Assembly: GCA_033065855.1 (NCBI GenBank)
Contig: JAVXUO010002858.1
Coordinates: forward strand, 434,001 to 498,000
Length of the DNA stretch: 64,000 nucleotides
Direction: 5' to 3'
From: Escallonia rubra
Lineage: Eukaryota > Streptophyta > Magnoliopsida > Escalloniales > Escalloniaceae
The translations under genes and the position numbers were made by a program. Position 1 is the first letter of the stretch. Each line of letters begins with the position of its first letter. Below are positions 1,390 to 64,000 of this stretch, in pieces. Below the pieces are notes generated by a model. It was not told the origin of the DNA, searched no databases, and worked only from the letters and a program-made list of their open reading frames with translations.

Positions 1390-2626
1390 TGTTAACCCTA
1401 CGGTTGTTTAACCTAGGATTATATTTGATTTTGATGATAACTAACATTGATGATTATGCTGTCTAACATGCATTGAGTTGATGAAGCAATAGGAACAATC
1501 TCATACTCATGCAAACGGATTATTAGACGAGCAACACGGTCAAAGACTCTCAACGGAACGCATCAAAGAGGGAAATCGTCGATTGAAGTTTTCATGCTTT
1601 TATTTCCGTCTTTGTAAACTAGACATAGAGAGATGATCGTTACGATGACTGTATACCTAGAACTTGCCCATAGGTTTCCCTTGCATGCATAAAAGTTTTT
1701 CATGCTTTAAAAACAGGAAACTGCATTTTCAGGAATGCAGTCGACTGCAAGTTGGGCAGTGAGGTATTACAGTCGACTGCAATACTTCCAGTAGCCTATT
1801 ACAGTCGACTGCAATGGATTACAGTCGACTGCAAGTTGGAAATTTGAATTTCCAACGGCTACTTTTGGGTTACAGTCGACTGCAATGGTGCATTGCAGTT
1901 GACTACATTTACCGTTTGGCGCATTTAATGCCCCACCTAACTCCAAACGGTCATATTTATTCCCACCTCTATAAATACTCATCTTGGGCATAGTTTTCAT
2001 TAATCGATTGCATTCAAAGCTCTCATATCTTTCATATTCTCAAAGATCAAAGCAATTGTTCAAATCTCTCTTGTTTTCATTGATTTCTCATCCTTTTCAA
2101 GAGAGCATTTATTGTGAGCTTACATTAGAGAGAGATACACTTTCATAAGTCATCATACACTCATCTCTCTTATTCTAGTACTTCAACTTGTACTCATCTA
2201 CTTCTTGAGAGTGAAATCTTGTACACATTTCTTCATTGAAAGGTTCTTGTATCAAAGCTTGGGGTTGTCAAGCTTTGGAGCTTTGGGTTTGTCAAAGCTT
2301 GTTCTTGATGTGGGCATAGCATCAAGGGTTTGTAAGAGGTTCAATCTTGACCCGTAAGGAAGATCATACTAGTGGATTCTAGGGCCTTTCAAGGGACTTC
2401 CTTGAAGGGGTGGACGTAGGCTTGTGGGTATATCAAGCCGAACCATTTAATTCTCCTTGTCAAGTATCTCTAAACCCTTATCTCTTTACTTTATCGTTTT
2501 ACATTTGTGTTGAGATTGGTTGTTTGTTTATTTGAGTTATTGAGATTGAGGTTTGTTGGTTGTTAATTTTTAAAGTAGTCTTAAAACCCTATTCACCCCC
2601 CCTCTAGGGTTATTTTATTGGTTTCA
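1390..2626 (+). repeat. 3' LTR of the copia element
   Basis: It begins TGTTAACCCT directly after the polypurine tract and ends near TGGTTTCA, a TG...CA unit of about 1.24 kb. A promoter-like stretch with CTATAAATAC lies near 1970. The upstream part contains five exact copies and one degenerate copy of the palindrome CAGTCGACTG (1738-1905) and a 20-bp inverted repeat at 1836-1855. The exact right end is a judgement, because the second LTR is not in the window. Confidence 0.75.
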
Positions 2627-4723
2627 GTTTCTTTGTCTCGTCTAAGTCTCTGTATAAGAGTCTACTTCTTGATCTTAGGCTTCAAAAGAGTATTTTTTTT
2701 AAAAGAAAAAAAGCAATGTGTGTGTCTGTGTGCGTGTGTATAATAGAAAAAAAAATCTAATGTCTGTTATTATTTTGCCCCTATCCTTCATGACTTCAGT
2801 AAAAGAGTCATTCTCTCTTAGTCCAAGTTTATGTCCCAGGGCATTTGACCCCTGTCCAGATCTGTACATCTAAGGCACATATATTCTTCTTTGCAAATCC
2901 AGTTCGATTTACATTCGCCTTAATCCCTCCCGGATGAGAGTATGTAGGCAACCTTCGTTAGGTGCAGCCATGTCTAATTAGGTCCATGCCAAAAGGGTAG
3001 TCAACCCTCAACTCAGGCGAGTACGTGAAGCTCACCTAAGGTCCAGATCTATGTTCGACGGTAGAAACTCTTAATTCAGGTTGACACGCGACTATCGTGT
3101 ACCTTGTGCTATCCCGTCTTAGTTTTTTTTTTCATATTCCTAGATGATTGACTGTTATTACTGTTGGTTCCGACATCTAGGGATGCGTTCTTATGGCCAA
3201 ACAACCAATCGTCGTTACTATTGGCTCTGACTCTTAATCATAAGTCATCATTATGCATAGACGACCAATCATCATTAGAATTGGCTCCGACTTCTAGACA
3301 TGTTTTTCTACGCACTCATCTAAGCAACCAATTGTTGTTACTATTGGCTCCGGCTCTTAGGCAGTGAGTTTTTCGGTACTAGTCCTAGTTTTTTTTTCTA
3401 TATTCCTAGACGACTAGCCGTAATTACTGTTGGCTCCGACATCTAGGGATACGTCTGCACGTCTAAGCGACCAATTGTCTTTACCATTAGCTCCGGCTCT
3501 TAGACATTACTTTTTAGTATCATTAGATGACTAATTGTTATTACCGTTGGTTACAGCTTCTAAGGATGCACCCTATGCCTAAGCGACCAATCTTCACTAA
3601 TATTGGCTCCAGCTCTTAGTCATAAGCTTTCAGTACATCTAGATAATCAATTGTTGTTATTGTTGGCTCCGGCTTCTGGATGTAGCTACATGTTTAAGGG
3701 ACCAGTCATTGTTACCATTGGCTCCGACTCTTAGACATTATTTTTTAGTATCCTTAGACGACCAATTGTTATTACGGTTGGCTACGGCTTCTAAGGATGC
3801 GCCTTATGCCTAAGCGACCAATTGTTGTTACTATTGGCTTCGGCGCTTAGTCATAAGCTTATAGTACATCTAGGCGAGCAATCATTGTTATTGTTGGCTC
3901 CAGCTTCTGGATTTACCTTCATGTTCAAGCGACCAATCGTTGTTACCATTGGCTTCGGCTCTTAGACATTACTTTTTAGTATCCTTAGACGACCAATTGT
4001 TGTTACCTTTGGCTACGACTTCTAAGGATGCGCCTTATGCCTAAGTGACCAATCGTTGTTATCATTGGCTCAGACTCTTAGAAATTACTTTTTAGTATCC
4101 TTAGACGACCAATTGTTGTTACCGTTGGCTATGACTTCTAAGGATGCGCTTTATGGCTAAGTGACTAATCGTCGTTACTATTGGCTCCGACTCTTAATCA
4201 TAAGCTTTCAGTACACCTAAACGATCAATCAATGTTAATATTCACTCTGGCTTCTGGATGTACCTTAATGTTTAAGTAACTAATTGTTATTACTGTTGGC
4301 TTCGGCTCTTAAACATGATTTCTCAGTATTCTTAAGCGACCAATCGTTGCTTTCATTAGCTTCGAATCTTAAGGCAGTGAGTTTTTCAGGTCCCAGTTCC
4401 AGTTTCTTCTCATGTCCCAGTATTCTTAGACAACCAATTGTTAATACCGTTAGCTCCGGCTTCTAAGAATACGCCCTTCATCTGGCAACCAATCGTTATT
4501 ACTACTGGTTACAGCTTCGAGTGATATCTCCGCCATCCAAACTACTTTGGTCTAATTACTTTTCACGGATACGTAGGAAGCCTTATAAAGGTCCGACCTC
4601 ATTTGTGTGAGTCTTGGAGTCTGTTTTGAGTCTTTTGTTTTTTTTTTTTGTTTCTACTACAAAAATGTGTCATCCTTTTACTGTGATATTCACCCGCAAG
4701 CGAGCTCCCTTAGCGAGGGGCTC
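2627..4723 (+). mobile_element. Tat/Ogre-like Ty3/gypsy 3' untranslated region (degraded)
   Basis: No coding frame is visible. The segment carries phrases I know from Tat/Ogre-lineage elements, such as GTATGTAGGCAACCTT near 2940 and GGATACGTAGGAAGCC near 4570, and a long tandem array in between. Tat elements are known for tandem repeats in the 3' untranslated region just before the 3' LTR, which fits the LTR at 4724. Lineage is inferred from motifs, not from a coding domain. Confidence 0.55.
3140..4545 (+). repeat. Degenerate tandem array of hairpin modules
   Basis: About 25 modules of roughly 40-45 bp share a core resembling GACCAATCGTTGTTACCATT followed by GGCT, separated by short AT-rich spacers. 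The modules fall into at least four types that differ mainly in an outer inverted pair: CCTAGATG/CATCTAGG (3140-3180), ATCCTTAGA/TCTAAGGAT (around 3749-3797), CTAAGC/GCTTAG (around 3810-3850) and ACATCTAGA/TCTGGATGT (around 3634-3681). The inner CCAAT/ATTGG pair is common to most modules. A higher-order period of about 235 bp is visible between GGATGCGCCTTATG copies. Confidence 0.75.
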
Positions 4724-5925
4724 TGTAAACATCCTATTTTTATAGTCTTTTTATTTATTAAATGATTATTAAACTTTATTGTTAATTAAGTTTATTATCA
4801 ATATTATAGGCTTATGCTTAATAATATAATGAGTCTAATCTATTTAATGTCCAGTCCAATCCAGTTTGAGTTCAGTCCAAGCCAGTTGTCTTGTCCAGTC
4901 TAGTCCAGTTGGTTAAACTAGCCCAGTTAGTTAGATTTAACCCAAGTTAAGGTCAAGAGATATTGATTAATTAGACGACTTGAAAATATTGTGTGATTCA
5001 TCTTTGATATATGTGATTAATCTTTGATTTATATGAGATATGGAGATAATGTTTCGAATCTGGTACATCCCATCAAATCAAATCAAAGGTAATTATTGAA
5101 TCAGTGTCAGATAATGTCTCGAAATTTGATTTTTTTTAAATTATGTGATAAACCGGCCGGTTAGTTGACTTTTGTCAATCTGTAATTTTTATCAAATATT
5201 TTATCTTATCTTCAAATCAAAGATTGATATGGTCATCTTTACCAATTCTAGCGTCCCAGACCACTATAAATAGGGCCCTTGGCCTACATTTTCAGGGACA
5301 TGTTTTTTCTCCCTAGAGCTTTTATACCATTTCTCTTAGAACTGGTAGATCATCTCTAAGGAGATCTTAGCACTTCATATTTTACCTCTCTATATATACA
5401 AGTCACTTGCATTGTGGATTCATCATAAAGTATTGACAAGTCTTCTAGGTAAAGCATTCTCGAGGTATATTTACAACTTTCTAGACTAGTTTACATTACA
5501 ATAATCTAGAAGTGTCTAATTCCCATAATCACATTTCTATTATAAAAATCGAAAGAGTCTTTTACATTTTTCAGTCTGAGTCTAAGACCGAAATGTAGAT
5601 TACTTCCCGTAAGACTAGATTTGAACTACGACGATTTTGATTCCGGTTAGTCCGATCGGATACATAGACAATTCGACCCTCGATGTTGAGTTCAAGCGAA
5701 AAACATAAAATTAACTTATGGTGAGTTTTATCATGTTTTGCATGTTACATGTTCTTAAGGCCAATGATCAATGGAAAGAAGTAGAGACAGAAATGGCATG
5801 ACAGGTGTCTAACACTTTCCCGTTGCGTAGCTTAGTCTTCAAACCCGTTTCCCTGTTTTAGATTAATCGTTTTTGGACACTTTAGGTCATTTTTAGGGTT
5901 TTTCTTATTTTTCCTAATTAAATGA
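4724..5925 (+). repeat. LTR of Tat/Ogre-like element
   Basis: It starts TGTAAACATCC after a purine-rich GCGAGGGG stretch and runs to just before a primer-site-like sequence at 5928. It contains a good TATA box and, near its right end, GTGTCTAACACTTTCC, a phrase I associate with this lineage. Having a tandem-array 3' region on one side and a primer site on the other suggests a tandem LTR-internal-LTR arrangement cut down by recombination. The right end is approximate. Confidence 0.5.
5265..5272 (+). promoter_or_regulatory. TATA box of the Tat/Ogre-like LTR
   Basis: TATAAATA lies in the context CACTATAAATAGGGCCC. It is followed about 30 bp downstream by a plausible start region, as expected for the U3/R border of an LTR. 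Confidence 0.55.
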
Positions 5926-5927
5926 GA

Positions 5928-5937
5928 CGGCGACTCC
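5928..5937 (+). other. Primer-binding-site-like sequence (tRNA-Arg type)
   Basis: CGGCGACTCC differs by one base from TGGCGACTCC, the usual Ogre/Tat primer site complementary to the 3' end of a tRNA-Arg. It sits a few bases after the inferred LTR end. Confidence 0.5.
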
Positions 5938-6203
5938 TGAAATTCTTTCTTGTTAGGGATTTTTCCGAGGCGGTTCATTACACGCTGGTTTGTGAAATAT
6001 GAGCTTGTCTTGGCTATCTTGCTTTTTTTTTTGTTCCTTGCTCTTCTAATAAGTGAAGGCACTTGCTTTTATCCTTCGTCTTCCTCTACCATGTCATTCT
6101 CATCCCTCTAAGAATTCTTTTGAGTTGTTTTGTACCGATTCAGTCCTATGGCCATAGAAAGATAGTTAATGCTTTTTTCCAAGCATTCACTATGGGATGA
6201 TTC
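5938..6203 (+). other. Leader-like remnant after the LTR
   Basis: Non-coding sequence with TTTTTCCGAGGCGG and long T tracts, consistent with the 5' leader of the same Ty3/gypsy element. No gag reading frame can be supported; the element appears to end here. Confidence 0.3.
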
Positions 6204-12787: not shown

Positions 12788-14693
12788 CCCTCGGGGGAAG
12801 GCCAAGGCCGACCCCCCTTGGAGAAGACTGAGGCCGATCCCTGCCTCGGCCGAACCCCCTTAGGGAAGGCCGACACCGAACCCCCTTTGGGAAAGGCCAA
12901 GGCACGCTGACATTGATCACTTAGCGAAAAAGTGAGCTCGATGGCCGAGGTGCGATGAACACGTTTCCGTAAGTCACGCAAAAATAAGTTTTTTGGCCGG
13001 GAAGAAGCGCAAGAAAGGAAAGTAGGCAGAAAGTTCACGTGACTTGAGCGTGCGTCACTTTGACCTGTTGGGAGCGTTGAAAAATTGAACGTTGACTATG
13101 TCGACGTGTCATGGGTGCAACCACTATAGGTTGGGAACAAAATCCTTATATGATAATCTTGGACACGAATAGAATTGAGAACACTTCAACATAATTCCTT
13201 TCCCAAAAGCCTATGAAGCACGGGTGCCCTCGGGGGAAGGCCAAGGCCGACCCCCCTTGGAGAAGACTGAGGCCGATCCCTGCCTCGGCCGAACCCCCTT
13301 AGGGAAGGCCGACACCAAACCCCCTTTGGGAAAGGCCAAGGCGCGCTGACGTTGATCACTTCTCGAAAAAGTTAGCTTGATGGCCGAGGTGCGATGAACA
13401 CGTTTCCGTAAGTCACGCAAAAATAAGTTTTTTGGCCGGGAAGAAGCGCAAGAAAGGAAAGTAGGCAGAAAGTTCACGTGACTTGAGCGTGCGTCACTTT
13501 GACCTGTTGGGAGCGTTGAAAAATTGAACGTTGACTATGTCGACGTGTCATGGGTGCAACCACGATAGGTTGGGAACAAAATCCTTATATGATAATCTTG
13601 GACACTAATAGAATTGAGAACACTTCAACATAATTCCTTTCCCAAAAGCCTATGAAGCACGGGTGCCCTCGGGGGAAGGCCAAGGCCGACCCCCCTTGGA
13701 GAAGACTGAGGCCGATCCCTGCCTCGGCCGAACCCCCTTAGGGAAGGCCGACACCGAACCCCCTTTGGGAAAGGCCAAGGCGCGCTGACGTTGATCACTT
13801 CGCGAAAAAGTGAGCTCTATGGCCGAGGTGCGATGAACACGTTTCCGTAAGTCACGCGAGGCCGATCCCTGCCTCGGCCGAACCGCCTTAGGGAATGCCG
13901 ACACCGAACTCCCTTAGGGAAAGGCCAAGGCGCGCTGACGTTGATCACTTCTCGAAAAAGTTAGCTTGATGGCCGAGGTGCGATGAACACGTTTCCGTAA
14001 GTCACGCAAAAATAAGTTTTTTGGCCGGGAAGAAGCGCAAGAAAGGAAAGTAGGCAGAAAGTTCACGTGACTTGAGCGTGCGTCACTTTGACCTGTTGGG
14101 AGCGTTGAAAAATTGAACGTTGACTATGTCGACGTGTCATGGGTGCAACCACGATAGGTTGGGAACAAAATCCTTATATGATAATCTTGGACACTAATAG
14201 AATTGAGAACACTTCAACATAATTCCTTTCCCAAAAGCCTATGAAGCACGGGTGCCCTCGGGGGAAGGCCAAGGCCGACCCCCCTTGGAGAAGACTGAGG
14301 CCGATCCCTGCCTCGGCCGAACCCCCTTAGGGAAGGCCGACACCGAACCCCCTTTGGGAAAGGCCAAGGCGCGCTGACGTTGATCACTTCGCGAAAAAGT
14401 GAGCTCTATGGCCGAGGTGCGATGAACACGTTTCCGTAAGTCAGGCAAAAATAAGTTTTTTGGCCGGGAAGAAGCGCAAGAAAGAAAAGTAGGCAGAAAG
14501 TTCACGTGACTTGAGCGTGCGTCACTTTGACCGGTTGGGAGCGTTGAAAAATTGAACGTTAACTATGTTGACGTGTCGTGGGTGCAACCACGATAGGTTG
14601 GGAACAAAATCCTTAGATGATAATCTTGGATACTAATAGAATTGAGAACACTTCAACATAATTCCTTTCCCAAAAGCCTATGAAGCACAGGTG
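12788..14693 (+). repeat. 439-bp tandem repeat, four units
   Basis: The phrase CCCTCGGGGGAAGGCC starts at 12788, 13227, 13666 and 14255, giving periods of 439, 439 and 589 bp. The third unit contains an internal 150-bp partial duplication. The array ends at GTGCCCCACTTTGG near 14693. Copy 2 of the segmental duplication has one unit only (29670-30108). Repeated 84-88 residue open frames on the minus strand are by-products. Confidence 0.95.
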
Positions 14694-15139
14694 CCCCACT
14701 TTGGTCGACATATCAGCACCGGGTGTGTGTCCAGAATTATTTTTTATTTAAATTAAATTTCTGGATCTTGGGTGTGGCTTGGTTACGGCTGTGATAGGCA
14801 CTTAGGGTTTTTTGGCTAAGAGGAGAGAGGTAGAAGGTGGAGAAGAAACAACCTCCACTGAAGACCACCGGCACCGTAATAGCAGCGACTGGCGGTGTCC
14901 GATAGCAGCGGAGACCCGAGGTGCAGAGCTGTGGGCAATTCGCTGTTTATAATCCAGGGGTGACACTGTACCAACTTTCTGTTTACTTTTCTTAGTTACC
15001 AGCTATTGACTATCTTTTAAAATAGCCCCAATACTTTCAAGAAGTAATACTAATGCAAGAACTTGTACAAACTATACACTTTCACATCTCTATTACAGAC
15101 GCCAAATTAACAAACTCTCTTAGTGTTTGTTTGAAATTG
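14694..15139. other. Unique-looking segment in copy 1
   Basis: Matches 30109-30606 in copy 2. No gene or recognisable element. Confidence 0.4.
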
Positions 15140-25559: not shown

Positions 25560-26300
25560 TAATTGAATGTATAGCGTAAATTGTTACATGTTGTAAGTTT
25601 AATTAACCTTAATTCACTGTACCTTAAACCCAATTAAAACTGATTAACCCTAATTAACTATACCCTAAATCCTAAATAACACTAATTAAGTGTAATTAAC
25701 CTCAATTAACTCTAATTAATCGTAAATAGCTCGAATTAACTCTAATCAGCCATAACTAGCCCTAATTAACACTAATTAACCCTAATTAAATCATAATTAA
25801 CAATAATTAACTCTAATTACCCCTAATTAGCTCTAATCAACCCTAATTAATGCTTATTAATCCTAATTAATATTTAATTAAACTCTAATTAACACTAATT
25901 AATCCTAATTAAACCCAACTAACTCTAATTAACTCTAATGAATCCTAATTAGTCCTAACTACCACTGATTAGCTTTAATTAGCCTTAATCAACACTGGTT
26001 AACCCTAATTAACTGTTAATTAAACTATGATTAACACTAATAAGCTTTAATTAGCCCTAATCACACCTAATTAACCTAAATAAATCCTAATTATTGATAA
26101 ATCCTAAACAGATCCTAATTAACATAATTAAACTCCAATTACCCTAATTAAATCCTAATTAGCCTTGACGAACCCTAACTAGACCCTAATGAGCCCTAAA
26201 TAGCCATCATTAACCCTAATGAACTCAATTAACCATAATTAAATCTTAATTACCCTAATTAAATCTTAATACATTCCCAATTACCCTAAATACAACCTGA
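25560..26300. repeat. Degenerate CCTAATTAA-type array (copy 1)
   Basis: About 700 bp of loosely repeated CCCTAATTAA/CTCTAATTAA phrases with no fixed period, lying after the leader exon of the CACTA element and so probably in its first intron. The same kind of array is at 42050-42790, 51370-51710 and, inverted, 44950-45310. Confidence 0.8.
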
Positions 26301-42049: not shown

Positions 42050-42790
42050 ATTGTGTAATTGAATGTATAGCGTAAATTGTTACATGTTGTAAGTTTAATT
42101 AACCTTAATTCACTGTACCCTAAACCCAATTAACACTGATTAACCTGAATTAACTATACCCTAAATCCTAAATAACACTAATTAAGTGTAATTAAACTCA
42201 ATTAACTCTAATTAATCATAAATAGCTCAAATTAGCTCTAAGCAGCCCTAACTAGCCCTGATAAACACTAAATAAACCTAATTAACTCCTAATTAATAAT
42301 AATTAACTCCAATTACCCATAATTAGCACTAATTAACACTGATTAACCCTAATTAATTATTAATTAAATTCTAATTAACATTAACTAATCCTAATTACAC
42401 CCAACTAACTCTAATTAACCCTAATGAACCCTAATTAGCCCTAACTACCACTAATTAGCTTTAATTGGCCCTAATCAACACTGGTTAACCCTAATTAACT
42501 GTTAATTAAACTATGATTAACACTAATAAGCTTTAATTAGCCCTAATCACACCTAATTAACCTAAATAAATCCTAATTACTGATAAATCCTAAACATATC
42601 CTAATTAAACTATTTAAAACCCAATTACTCTAAATAAACCTTAATTAGCCTTGATAAACCCTAACTAAACCCTAATGAGCCCTCAATAGTCCTGATTAAC
42701 CCTCTGGAACTCAATTAACCCTAGTTAAATCCTATTTACCCTAATTAAATCGTAATACATTCCCAATTAATTATCCCAAATACAACCTAA
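42050..42790. repeat. Degenerate CCTAATTAA-type array (copy 2)
   Basis: Counterpart of 25560-26300 inside CACTA-1, diverged in phrase number and order. Confidence 0.8.
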
Positions 42791-44949: not shown

Positions 44950-45310
44950 GAGTAATTATGGGATGACCAAGGGCTAATTAGGGCTATTTGGGTTAATTAC
45001 GATAGTCATGATTTAGCATTATGGGTTTAATTAATCTAATTAGGATTTATTAAGATATGTTAGGGCTAATTAGTGTTAATGAGGAGTACCTTGGGCTAAT
45101 TATAGCTAATTAGGGTTGATTAGGACTAATTAGGGTTATTTAGTCATAATTAGGGTATAATTGTGCCTAGTGTTGATTGGTCCTAATTTGGGCTAATTAG
45201 GCTTAATTGGGTTATGTTAGGGCTGATTAGTGTTAATTAGGGCTAACTTCGGGTAATTACAACTAATTTGATTTTCATTGGGCTTTTAGGGTTAATTAAA
45301 AGTAATTAGG
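44950..45310. repeat. CCTAATTAA-type array, inverted orientation
   Basis: Repeated TTAGGGCTAATTAGG phrases, the reverse complement of the arrays in CACTA-1. This matches the opposite orientation of CACTA-2 and supports a family relationship between the two elements. Confidence 0.75.
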
Positions 45311-51369: not shown

Positions 51370-51710
51370 TTAATGTGCTAATTAAACCTGATTAATCTAA
51401 TTAAACCTTAAGTAACCTAATTAAATGTTAATTAGCCCTAATTAGCTCTGATAAATCCTGATTAAACCCTAATCACTCTACTTAAATCGTAATTAACCAT
51501 AATTAACCTAATTAAAGCCAAATTACCTTAATTAAATCCTAAATAGCCCTATTTAACCTATTTAAACCGTAATTAACCCTAATTAAATGCAAGTTGACCC
51601 TAATTAAATCATAATTAGCCCTAATTATCCCTGATAAGCCTTAATTAAATCGTAAATAACCTGAGTAAACCCTAATTACATTCTAATTAACTTACTCGTA
51701 TACTCGGTTC
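51370..51710. repeat. CCTAATTAA-type array between the two CACTA genes
   Basis: Repeated AATTAACCCTAATTAAAT-type phrases, as in the leader intron. Confidence 0.7.
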
Positions 51711-59379: not shown

Positions 59380-60284
59380 TACGACCACTCTTACATGGAG
59401 CCTGTACTCTCCCTCATACGATGGTTGAGCAGCACGACCTGCTCATCACCATTCATGCCATGTAAAAATCTATCATTTAGTTGCAAGCCTTGGTCAATCG
59501 TCCATCTTGGATGTATCGAGCACTACAAACCACCACCTATCAATGATGCCTCACCTAACCTCCTCATCATGACACTGAGAGCTTTTATGATCAACGTCCA
59601 AGGTCACACGACGGTGAATTTAGAAATACTCTCGCCATCTGCATCTAAAGAAAGACCAAAACCGTTGCAATGGCCACGTCACTTTTTCTAAACGACGAAG
59701 AGTATCATTATTCAAGGAACAAATGACCTAAGAAGAGATATTACGAGGCTCACTCTTAAGTGCCTCAACCGTGCTCTAACCACTCTCATGACCAACACCT
59801 TGAGAAGCTCAGCATCACAGTGCCAGATATCCTCCGGTACGCCTTCCACTGAGCACATTTATGATGGTCTAGCCGAGCACCCGTGTTCATCTCTATAAAG
59901 AGTCGCCTAAACCTTGGCCCAACTGAGCACTCATTCTCCTTTCTCGAAAAGTCACATAAGCCTCGTAGAATATAGATCTTTTGAATTCCTAGCTCACTGC
60001 TCACCGGACCGAGCTAAAGAACTCTGATGGACTCCTACCTTGCCAGTCCGAGCAGACGAGCTCCTTTAGGCCTCTCGAAGTCTCTCTTGCTCAAAATAAA
60101 ATAAAGTTCTCCTTATATAGAGATATTTTCGTAATCCAATAGCCAGGATCTAATGAGTGTTGGGACACCCAACACGTGGTGCCAATCAATCAGCATAACA
60201 AGGAGGTAAGTTTACCCTTGTACCCCTTAATGGAAATGACAAAAGTGAGTGAAAATGCTACTTCACTCGAATCCTTTATAAAGC
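59380..60284. other. LARD interior before the array
   Basis: No gene seen. Phrases resembling array monomers (GAGCAGACGAGCTCC near 60050) already appear and suggest older, decayed units. Confidence 0.5.
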
Positions 60285-61705
60285 CTCTGCTCGCAAAGCT
60301 GAGCAGATAAGCGTGTTAAGACCATCTAGGCCTCTACTCGCCCAGCCGAGTAGACGAGCCCTTTCGAGGTCTAAGCCTCTACTTGTAAAGCTGAGCAGAT
60401 GAGCGCATTTGGACTATCTAGGCCTCTACTCGCCCAGCCAAGTAGACGAACTCCTTGTGAAGTTTAAGCCTCTGCTTGCAAAGACGAGCAGATGAGCGTA
60501 TTTAGACCATTTAGGCCTCTACTTGTCCAGCCGAGGAGACGAGCCCCTTTCGTGGTCTAAGCCTCTGCTCGCAAAACCGAGCAGAAGAAAAGAGAGCGCG
60601 TTTAGACCACATAGGCCTCTACTCGCCTCACCTCGCCGAGTAGACGAGCCCTTTTCGAGGTCTAAGCCTTTGCTCGCAAAGCCGAGCATCCGAGCGCGTT
60701 TAGACTACCTAGGCCTCTACTCGCCAAGCCGAGTAGACGAGCCCTTTTCAAGGTCTAAGCCTCTGCTCGTAAAGCCGAGCAGTCAAGCGCATTTAGACCA
60801 TCTAGGCCTCTACTCGCCCAGCTGAGTAGATGAGCCATTTCGAGGTCTAAGACTCTGCTCGCAAAGCTGTGCAGACGAGCGCATTTAGACCATTTAGGCC
60901 TCTACTCGCCCTGCTGAGTAAACGAGCCCCTTTTTGAGGTCTAGGCCTCTGCTCGCAAAGCCGAAAAGACGAGCACGTTTAGATGACCTAGGCCTCTATT
61001 CGCAGAGTCGAGTAGACGAGCCCTTTTCGAGGTGTAAGCCTCTGCTCGTAAAGCCGAGTAGATGAGCGTGTTTAGACCACCTAGGTTTCTACTCGCCAAG
61101 CCGAGTAAACGAACTCTTTGTGAGGTCTAAGCCTCTACTCGTAAAGCCGAGCAGACGAAAACGTTTAGACCAGCTAGGTCGTTACTCGCTCAGCCAAGTA
61201 AACGAACTCCTTTTGGGTCTAAGCCTATGCTCGCAAAATCGAGCAGACTAGCACATTAAACCCCCCCTATGGCTTTACTCGCTTATCCGCGTAGACGAGC
61301 TCCTTTGGGGTTTAAGCATCTGCTTGCAAAGTCGAGCAGATGAGCACATTAGCCCCCCCCCCCCCCACCCCCAATGCCTCTACTCGCTCAGTCTAGTAGA
61401 CAAGCTTCTTTGGGGTCTAAGCCTATGCTTGCAAAGCCGAGCAAATTAGACCCCTAATGCCTCTACTTGCTCAGCAGAGTAGACGAGCTCCTTTTAAGTC
61501 TAAGTTTCTTCTCACAAAGTCAAGCAGATGAGTGCATTAGACCCCCAATGCCTCTACTCGCTTAGCAGAGTAGACGAGCTCCTTTGGGGTTTAAGCTTCT
61601 GCTCGCAAAGCCAGCAGACGAGTACATTAGACACCAATGCCTCTACTCCGCCAGGCCGAGTAGACGAGCCCCTAGGATCTCTACTCCGTCAGGCCGAGTA
61701 GACGA
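60285..61705 (+). repeat. Dimeric ~93-bp tandem array of hairpin monomers
   Basis: About 16 dimers, each with a half-unit around TCTGCTCGCAAAGCCGAGCA and a half-unit around TCTACTCGCCCAGCCGAGTA. Each half-unit is an inverted repeat: TCTGCTCG/CGAGCAGA and TCTACTCG/CGAGTAGA with a 6-base loop. The array decays toward the right end, where the second half-units dominate. It lies just before the polypurine tract and 3' LTR. Repetitive open frames in it are by-products. Confidence 0.9.
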
Positions 61706-61817: not shown

Positions 61818-61831
61818 TAATGGGGGGCAAA
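61818..61831 (+). other. Polypurine tract of the LARD
   Basis: TAATGGGGGGCAAA immediately before the 3' LTR start TGATATGGG. Confidence 0.7.
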
Positions 61832-62282
61832 TGATATGGGTAAAAAATACCCACCAATGGGAAGGTGACACATGTCACCGCCAGGTAGCACCAAAACTGC
61901 TCCTTGATTCTTGGAGATGTGGGAGTGGCACTTGCCCACCTTTCCACTATCCCACTATCTCATTATGAGCAATGCCCATTAAATCCTGGTAACCTCCCAC
62001 TAATTAGAGTAACTCCCCATTAAGGAAAGGTAGCCGACCCTTTAATACATTCTTATAAAATGGAAGAGGGAAGGAGGAAGAAAGAAGTTTTGACTATCTA
62101 ATGTTCTCATATGCTCTTTTAAGATTTCTTACTGACTTAAGCATCGGAGACTCTCCGCTGGAACCCGCTCCGGGGGTCCGGCGCGTCACCGTTAGCTCGT
62201 GTTGTGCTCCGCAGGTCTGCTCGTGTGCTCATTTTGTCCCAACCGACTCTCGTTTGGTCCCGGTCAATTTTTGACCACAACA
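61832..62282 (+). repeat. 3' LTR of the LARD
   Basis: Starts TGATATGGGTAAAAAATAC and ends GACCACAACA before TTACC. Confidence 0.9.
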
Positions 62283-62287
62283 TTACC

Positions 62288-63514: not shown

Positions 63515-64000
63515 AGTGTTATTAAAGGCGCAGGCGCACCTAAGGCGCAAAAGGTCCCTGGAGCCTAGGCGCAAGGCGCAAGGCGCAAGGCGCAAGGCGC
63601 AAGGCGCAGGTGCGCGCCTTTCTGAAGCGAGGCGTAATATTAAAATAAATAAATAATAATAATAATAATACACAAAAACAATAAATTATGTTTAAAAAAA
63701 AAACACATGACAATTAACAAATCAGATTAAATGCACATATATCAATTAAGGGCCAATTCAATTCAAATTAATTTCAATTTCAATCTCAAACTCAATTCAA
63801 TTCATATTATGCAATCTTATCTGCCTGGACAGTGTATGAATTCAAACTCAATTTCAATTTCAATTGGACAGTGTATGAAGAAAAAAGAAAAGGCAAGAAG
63901 AAAAAAGAAAATGCAATCTTTTCTTTTTTCTTCATACACCCCCCAGTCCGGACAGTGTGTGAAGAAAAAAGAAAAGGCAAGAAAATCACTGCTCACCCGA
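63514..64000. mobile_element. hAT element, left part (hAT-E, same family as hAT-D)
   Basis: Starts CAGTGTTATTAAAGGCGCAG and matches the left terminus of hAT-D, with an added run of the 7-bp unit GGCGCAA (63568-63606). It runs past the window edge. Near the end, GGACAGTGTATGAA-like phrases recur three times between AAGAAAAAAGAAAA tracts. Confidence 0.7.

Follow-up and report, generated by a model that had tools for sequence, protein, structure and literature searches.

Hypervariable tandem repeats precede the 3' long terminal repeat (LTR) of Tat retrotransposons, and satellite DNAs have been derived from them, according to passages of PMC7004042, PMC11963269 and PMC6317226. In these passages, the mechanism and the function of the pre-LTR repeats of Tat, Ogre and Retand elements are left open. 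A part of PMC7004042 describes pre-3'-LTR tandem repeats as common in abundant plant retrotransposons and as a seed of new satellite DNAs. A survey of Retand elements (PMC11963269) reports that roughly half of the elements it covers carry arrays specific to their family, and that an antisense TRP28 open reading frame (ORF) is typical of the arrays.

Here, a repeat array is described from Escallonia rubra (assembly GCA_033065855.1, contig JAVXUO010002858.1, positions 434,001 to 498,000 of the forward strand). The window is this whole stretch of 64,000 nucleotides, and coordinates refer to it. The array (3132-4530, + strand) belongs to an LTR retrotransposon and lies on its sense strand, upstream of the 3' LTR. 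It is built of hairpin modules with outer stems that are kept paired while their letters change. A reading made earlier from the letters alone (the sequence-only reading) had pointed out that the 3' untranslated region (3'UTR) of Tat/Ogre elements carries variable tandem repeats, which the passages of PMC7004042 and PMC6317226 bear out. Pre-LTR tandem repeats are already known; hairpins that covary and alternate appear to be what is new. A word search of the main texts of PMC7004042, PMC11963269 and PMC6317226 gave neither 'hairpin' nor 'secondary structure', and no description of covarying hairpins in pre-3'-LTR repeats was found in the open-access papers searched, judging by listings.

Hairpin modules of the array

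Twenty-three modules were located on the + strand, spaced mostly 60 or 55-56 bp apart. Their cores start at 3148, 3205, 3265, 3328, 3414, 3471, 3531, 3587, 3647, 3702, 3762, 3818, 3878, 3933, 3993, 4049, 4109, 4165, 4225, 4280, 4340, 4434 and 4489. The array had been placed at 3140..4545 by the sequence-only reading; it was recovered with the extent given above, and the earlier estimate of about 25 modules was lowered to 23. Each module consists of a 9-bp outer stem, a 3 x 8 internal loop, a 5-bp inner stem CCAAT/ATTGG, which had been recognized before as the shared inner pair, and an apical part. All 23 modules fit a single ungapped register, in which bases -4 to -12 before CCAAT are matched with bases +9 to +17 after ATTGG. 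RNAalifold, with the alignment of the window modules as the sole input, recovered the same 14 pairs plus two apical pairs.

The four versions of the outer stem that had been read from the letters were all found, and in this common register. Examples, all on the + strand, are a class A module at 3802..3859 (outer stem ATGCCTAAG/CTTAGTCAT, 8 of 9 pairs), a class B module at 3746..3803 (ATCCTTAGA/TCTAAGGAT, 9 of 9 pairs), a class C module at 3631..3688 (ACATCTAGA/TCTGGATGT, 9 of 9 pairs, one of them G-U) and a class D module at 3398..3455 (ATTCCTAGA/TCTAGGGAT, 9 of 9 pairs, one of them G-U). Class A modules mostly form 8-9 outer-stem pairs in the ungapped register. Even the type described earlier as CTAAGC/GCTTAG has a stem of mostly 8-9 bp in that register. 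Across element copies, the number of hairpins per array ranges from about 8 to 28.

Covariation within the window

Among the 23 window modules, 91.0% of 322 cells were paired, against 79.8 ± 1.1% after shuffling within columns (0 of 500 shuffles reached the observed value) and 26-43% in slid registers. Cells changed on both sides numbered 56 against 21.0 ± 5.5 in shuffles, and the covariation score was 0.487 against 0.267 ± 0.020; neither value was reached in 500 shuffles. Two measures were weaker, namely the number of pairs with two-sided change (10 against 6.2, reached by 4 of 500 shuffles) and the number of further pair types (24 against 21.4, reached by 44 of 500).

Covariation across genomic copies

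Further loci were picked by similarity to the window array. Scoring of 40 of the 434 candidates resulted in 39 places, of which 31 were used and 8 left out. Modules were collected with a profile built on the core alone (566 hits); the outer arms thus had no influence on which modules were found. After removal of 26 gapped hits and 2 hits at an end or with N, 538 modules were used. For the strand counts and for the analyses with a tree of non-stem columns, 15 more modules outside the array spacing were dropped, leaving 523.

Comparison with other genomic copies, and a covariation test against a null that keeps the module phylogeny, had both been proposed with the sequence-only reading. In the 538 modules from 31 of the 39 places, the outer stem was paired in 0.812 of cells; 150 simulations along the module tree, with equal numbers of changes per column, gave at most 0.627. 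With the tree of non-stem columns, pairing was 0.820 (at most 0.612 in 300 simulations), and 127 pair-keeping double changes were counted against a null mean of 15.4 and a null maximum of 33. The stem as a whole passed the test in both forms. Pair-keeping double changes on the whole-module tree amounted to 33 in the true register and to 4-11 in eight slid registers.

Ranked by corrected mutual information among the 1540 column pairs of the 538 modules, the outer-stem pairs took places 1, 2, 3, 6, 13, 15, 23, 35 and 438. Four of them (u-4:d+9, u-5:d+10, u-9:d+14 and u-10:d+15) exceeded their own null maximum in the 150 simulations. Most outer positions hold several Watson-Crick types; u-10:d+15, for instance, was GC in 106, TA in 53, CG in 45 and AT in 24 of 375 modules from the first 21 places. 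The native arm duplex had an energy of -7.14 kcal/mol, compared with -5.87 ± 0.106 kcal/mol when 3' arms were swapped within the same locus and stem class. The swap costs 1.3 kcal/mol, and none of 100 swaps reached the native value. Outer-stem pairing is maintained through compensatory change. Covariation beyond a phylogeny-keeping null was found for the whole outer stem, and not for the inner stem or for single pairs when compared with the simulation-wide maximum.

These data bear on ordinary decay of a tandem repeat, by which ancestral palindromic module classes were amplified and the covariation is shared ancestry. Stem classes common to different copies are in line with it, as are the single pairs below the simulation-wide maximum, and column shuffles alone cannot exclude ancestry. 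The nulls that keep the tree and the per-column rates, and the swaps restricted to locus and class, failed to reproduce the whole-stem pairing. Simple decay was rejected since both fell short of the observed value, and such an origin is considered very improbable. Chance was rejected as well.

Changes per column, counted by parsimony, were 94.9 in the flank, 76.6 in the internal loop, 69.7 in the apical part, 67.2 in the outer stem and 49.0 in the inner stem. Sequence is most uniform in the inner stem and at some loop positions, and the outer stem varies freely if it stays paired. Much of the loop change was C-T and G-A, as at methylated CG, and may have arisen by CG methylation.

The core positions c6 and c15, at the apical end next to the inner stem, are mostly occupied by two pyrimidines, and this mismatch covaries. 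C.U and U.C together were counted 349 times (263 expected), C.C and U.U 133 times (219 expected) in 523 modules.

Mode of change and strand

Changes from a Watson-Crick pair to G-U (350) outnumbered those to A-C (268) on the tree, with outer and inner stems taken together and read on the sense strand. Unpaired columns gave a corresponding ratio near 1 (581:575), and the odds of 1.29 had a p value of 0.0017 if the events are treated as independent. A strand-specific tolerance of G-U is present, though modest. In the outer stem, internal branches above at least 3 modules carried 58 changes to G-U and 30 to A-C; on terminal branches the numbers were 137 and 118. Stepwise switches to another pair went through G-U in 37 cases and through A-C in 16. 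Single modules fold better on the sense strand (arms -7.14, antisense -5.77).

The pairing could also have been produced without selection, by a copying process that rewrites one arm from the other, such as a template switch in the hairpin during reverse transcription or quasi-palindrome correction. Several stem classes do differ at many pairs simultaneously, and reverse transcriptases are prone to template switching. On one whole-module tree that included the stem columns, every branch with a pair-keeping double change (33 of 33) altered exactly one pair. Replacement of several adjacent pairs in one event was seen in 0 of 33 branches, and block copying of arms was rejected on this count. With the non-stem tree, more doubles (127) fall on single branches; their clustering is not part of the one-pair result. 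Arm rewriting is further opposed by the common stepwise changes via G-U (37) and by the loops between the arms, since both the non-palindromic 3 x 8 internal loop and the apical one are retained. The branch counts, the stepwise switches and the one-pair double changes accord better with gradual compensation in RNA, and with decay once the element had inserted, than with a copying process that renews an arm, which is judged unlikely.

Selection could instead act on DNA, through cruciform extrusion or a palindrome-binding protein. Complementarity would be identical in DNA, and by the title of one reference plant LTR elements are reported to target palindromes. The excess of G-U over A-C on the sense strand is not expected for cruciform DNA, and stems of 9 and 5 bp that are split by a 3 x 8 internal loop should form cruciforms poorly. 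Selection at the DNA level is rated as quite improbable. Among the three readings proposed from the letters (selection on RNA, cruciform structure and rewriting of both arms), selection on RNA fits best: compensation of one pair at a time together with G-U over A-C favours it over a process that rewrites both arms.

Arrays of stem-loops in transcripts can be diced, and the hairpins might feed small-RNA silencing or other host processing as a side effect from the element's point of view. With 9 + 5 bp, the stems are rather short substrates for plant Dicer-like enzymes, and compensation in favour of pairing would run against the interest of the element; this explanation is considered very improbable.

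Order of modules within arrays

Stem classes were assigned by comparing each 5' arm with five reference arms for similarity, and the remainder was pooled as one class. Neighbours of the same class occurred in 30 of 473 cases, with 103 expected at random. For the 5' arm of a module, the duplex energy was -7.1 kcal/mol with the 3' arm of the same hairpin, -2.5 kcal/mol with the 3' arm one module on and -3.7 kcal/mol with the 3' arm two modules on. Since adjacent stem classes differ and cross-pair little, each hairpin can fold locally. The alternation insulates neighbours, whether it was selected for or arose from amplification in pairs.

A second array in the window

A second array, of hairpins of about 47 bp, is located at 60281..61673 (+ strand). 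Its modules alternate between TCTGCTCG/CGAGCAGA and TCTACTCG/CGAGTAGA, with paired change. By inspection, its sequence is unlike that of the first array, and it precedes a different LTR; repeat sequences thus differ between families, as in Tat-type elements. Behind it follows an LTR-like repeat (61830..62285, + strand); in 8 of 11 other copies, matches to this repeat begin at its first base. The two linkers of this array are complementary to each other.

For this family, 40 of 332 candidates were scored and 12 places were used, window included. From 470 hits, 70 gapped and 2 edge hits were removed, and 278 of the remaining 398 modules were kept as in register. Exchanging arms inside the same locus and class raised the energy by 0.8 kcal/mol, and 0 of 100 swaps reached the native value (278 modules, 12 places). 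One inner pair covaries (GC 71, AT 129, GT 35, AC 25; 236 of 278 paired, 204.5 expected), and a G-C/C-G swap in the outer stem was top of 1830 pairs by excess pairing. Ranking by raw mutual information missed the hairpin, with inner pairs at places 861-1574. Antisense arms were more stable (-9.01) than sense arms (-7.12). The outer-arm evidence is weaker than in the first array because the two linkers simply alternate. Together with the absence of a G-U excess in the inner stem (see Evaluation), the antisense stability and the weak ranking limit the support from the second array, for now, to a common architecture, short of a common function or strand.

Host element and surroundings

The noncoding region 5' of the array (2627..3131, + strand) is truncated at its 5' side by a copia-like insertion; other copies, for example L013, L014, L016, L024 and L028, carry homologous pieces ahead of their arrays. 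Between array and LTR lies a segment of about 180 bp (4546..4723, + strand) with a purine-rich stretch ahead of the LTR start; of 20 other copies with flanking sequence, 17 have a match to it 3' of the array. The 3' LTR follows at 4724..5982 (+ strand, TG...CA, ends read by eye). It was matched 3' of the array in 16 of the 20 copies, with short matches of 50-75 bases in L013, L018 and L028. The array is placed just 5' of the 3' LTR in sense orientation, like the 3'UTR repeats of Tat-type elements. In copy L009 (oriented, 2729-3504), an LTR piece stands almost directly 5' of the array, giving LTR-array-LTR as if the whole of the coding sequence had been deleted.

The 3' LTR of the inserted copia-like element covers 1390..2626 (+ strand), and its right boundary agrees with the comparison of other copies. 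We take this insert, with its LTR ending at about 2626, to be SIRE-like. An ORF at 56-808 resembles by eye the polyprotein tail of the insert, and a Pfam search with it returned no family at E up to 1.

Two copies were traced further upstream: L053 covers sequence ahead of the array in L013, and L054 sequence ahead of the array in L024. Pieces resembling gag were seen there, some apparently duplicated. One piece of L054 matches the Pfam gag family PF03732 at an E value of 4e-4 (0.0017 in a longer set), below the curated cut-off. L053 has pieces similar to those of L054 by eye and gave no Pfam match. A pol domain was not found with Pfam in the searched pieces (L053 frame 1, L054 frame 0, some short pieces left out), and the two copies might thus lack autonomy or have decayed too far; perhaps they are gag-only, non-autonomous elements. 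Position, gag and LTR features suggest that the host element is gypsy-type and probably of the Tat lineage, a label taken from these features rather than from the reverse transcriptase and the additional RNase H domain expected of that lineage. Within 2626-5990, no Rfam match was obtained at E up to 1. A scan of viral contigs for the conserved flank pattern and a plasmid search gave no result.

Other repeats of the window are a GC-rich tandem array at 12788-14696, with 439-bp units and an inserted 150-bp unit at 94-97% matches (Tandem Repeats Finder), in which short palindromes were seen by eye. This 439/150-bp array was set aside as different in kind from the hairpin arrays. Loose CTAATTAACC-like decamer repeats occur in four stretches (25600-26262, 42168-42569, 51378-51691 and, on the opposite strand, 45060-45268), and the heptamer AGGCGCA is present in six perfect copies at 63567-63608.

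Evaluation

From the sequence comparisons, the base pairing of the array hairpins is likely to have been under selection in the RNA of the element. Several results count against this. The outer pair u-11:d+16 is the one that ranks 438 of 1540; the inner-stem pairs rank 273-796 and hardly covary, and their letters were also used for module finding. In the 150 simulations, the remaining five of the nine outer pairs stayed below their own null maximum in mutual information, the pairing of single pairs was mostly within its own null maximum, and no single pair topped the highest mutual information of any pair, because changes on deep branches yield high values by chance. Because loops and outer stem change at similar frequency, it is not evident that the loops hold a conserved binding face. 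If the array grew in units of two modules, stem classes could alternate without serving any purpose. The preference for G-U is modest, with a p value that takes no account of errors in the tree, and it is absent from the inner stem of the second array (G-U 107, A-C 119, in five of eight pairs). The 734-base stretch 3463-4196 folded with z -3.36 in sense and -4.55 in antisense (20 shuffles each), and long-stretch folding leaves the strand unsettled.

Under selection on RNA pairing, the array would form a multivalent element within the genomic RNA of its host, an LTR retrotransposon of gypsy type and probably of the Tat lineage. As the covariation suggests, selection would have acted during the active life of the element to keep each hairpin paired, and stem letters would have changed pair by pair, often through G-U. 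The differing stem classes of adjacent hairpins, a pattern seen directly, may have the purpose of local folding. The likeliest use would be to present a series of docking sites to a protein, whether Gag or a host factor, and docking could serve export, packaging or stability of the genomic RNA. As a tentative and rather doubtful extension, the Tat-type hypervariable repeats before the 3' LTR might in general be arrays of tens of protein-docking RNA hairpins. Selection would then preserve how the units fold and how many sites there are rather than their sequence, and stems would alternate against mispairing or recombination of neighbours.

Such repeats are usually regarded as junk, and the findings suggest a job as folded RNA. 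With clear covariation, their function becomes testable, in that the protein or process that reads the hairpins can be sought. If the extension held, it would explain why repeats are so common before the LTR and yet so different between families, and the derived satellite DNAs would be fossils of RNA structure.

Comparison with known systems

The closest counterparts are the hypervariable 3'UTR repeats of Tat/Ogre elements (Macas et al. 2009, as cited in passages of PMC7004042 and PMC6317226), which also stand ahead of the 3' LTR, have monomers tens of bp in length and are family-specific in sequence. Unlike the monomers described there, those of the array form two-part hairpins; their stems covary base by base and alternate in class. 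The tandem arrays between POL and the 3' LTR of Retand elements, as presented in part of PMC11963269, are similar in position, in being family-specific and perhaps in having non-autonomous members.

The array also resembles the constitutive transport elements and packaging signals of retroviruses, which are structured, protein-binding RNAs within genomic RNA; for the array, we infer the binding. Those signals comprise one or a few units, whereas here about two dozen hairpins alternate, without an Rfam match. Engineered MS2/PP7 arrays likewise hold many copies of one hairpin with varied stems. They are man-made, their hairpins bind, and their stems were varied against cross-pairing and recombination, whereas the array described here is natural. 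It provides a rule from nature for designing long arrays of independently folding RNA hairpins and, if the extension to Tat-type repeats in general were true, such repeats would be the natural counterpart of the engineered MS2 arrays.
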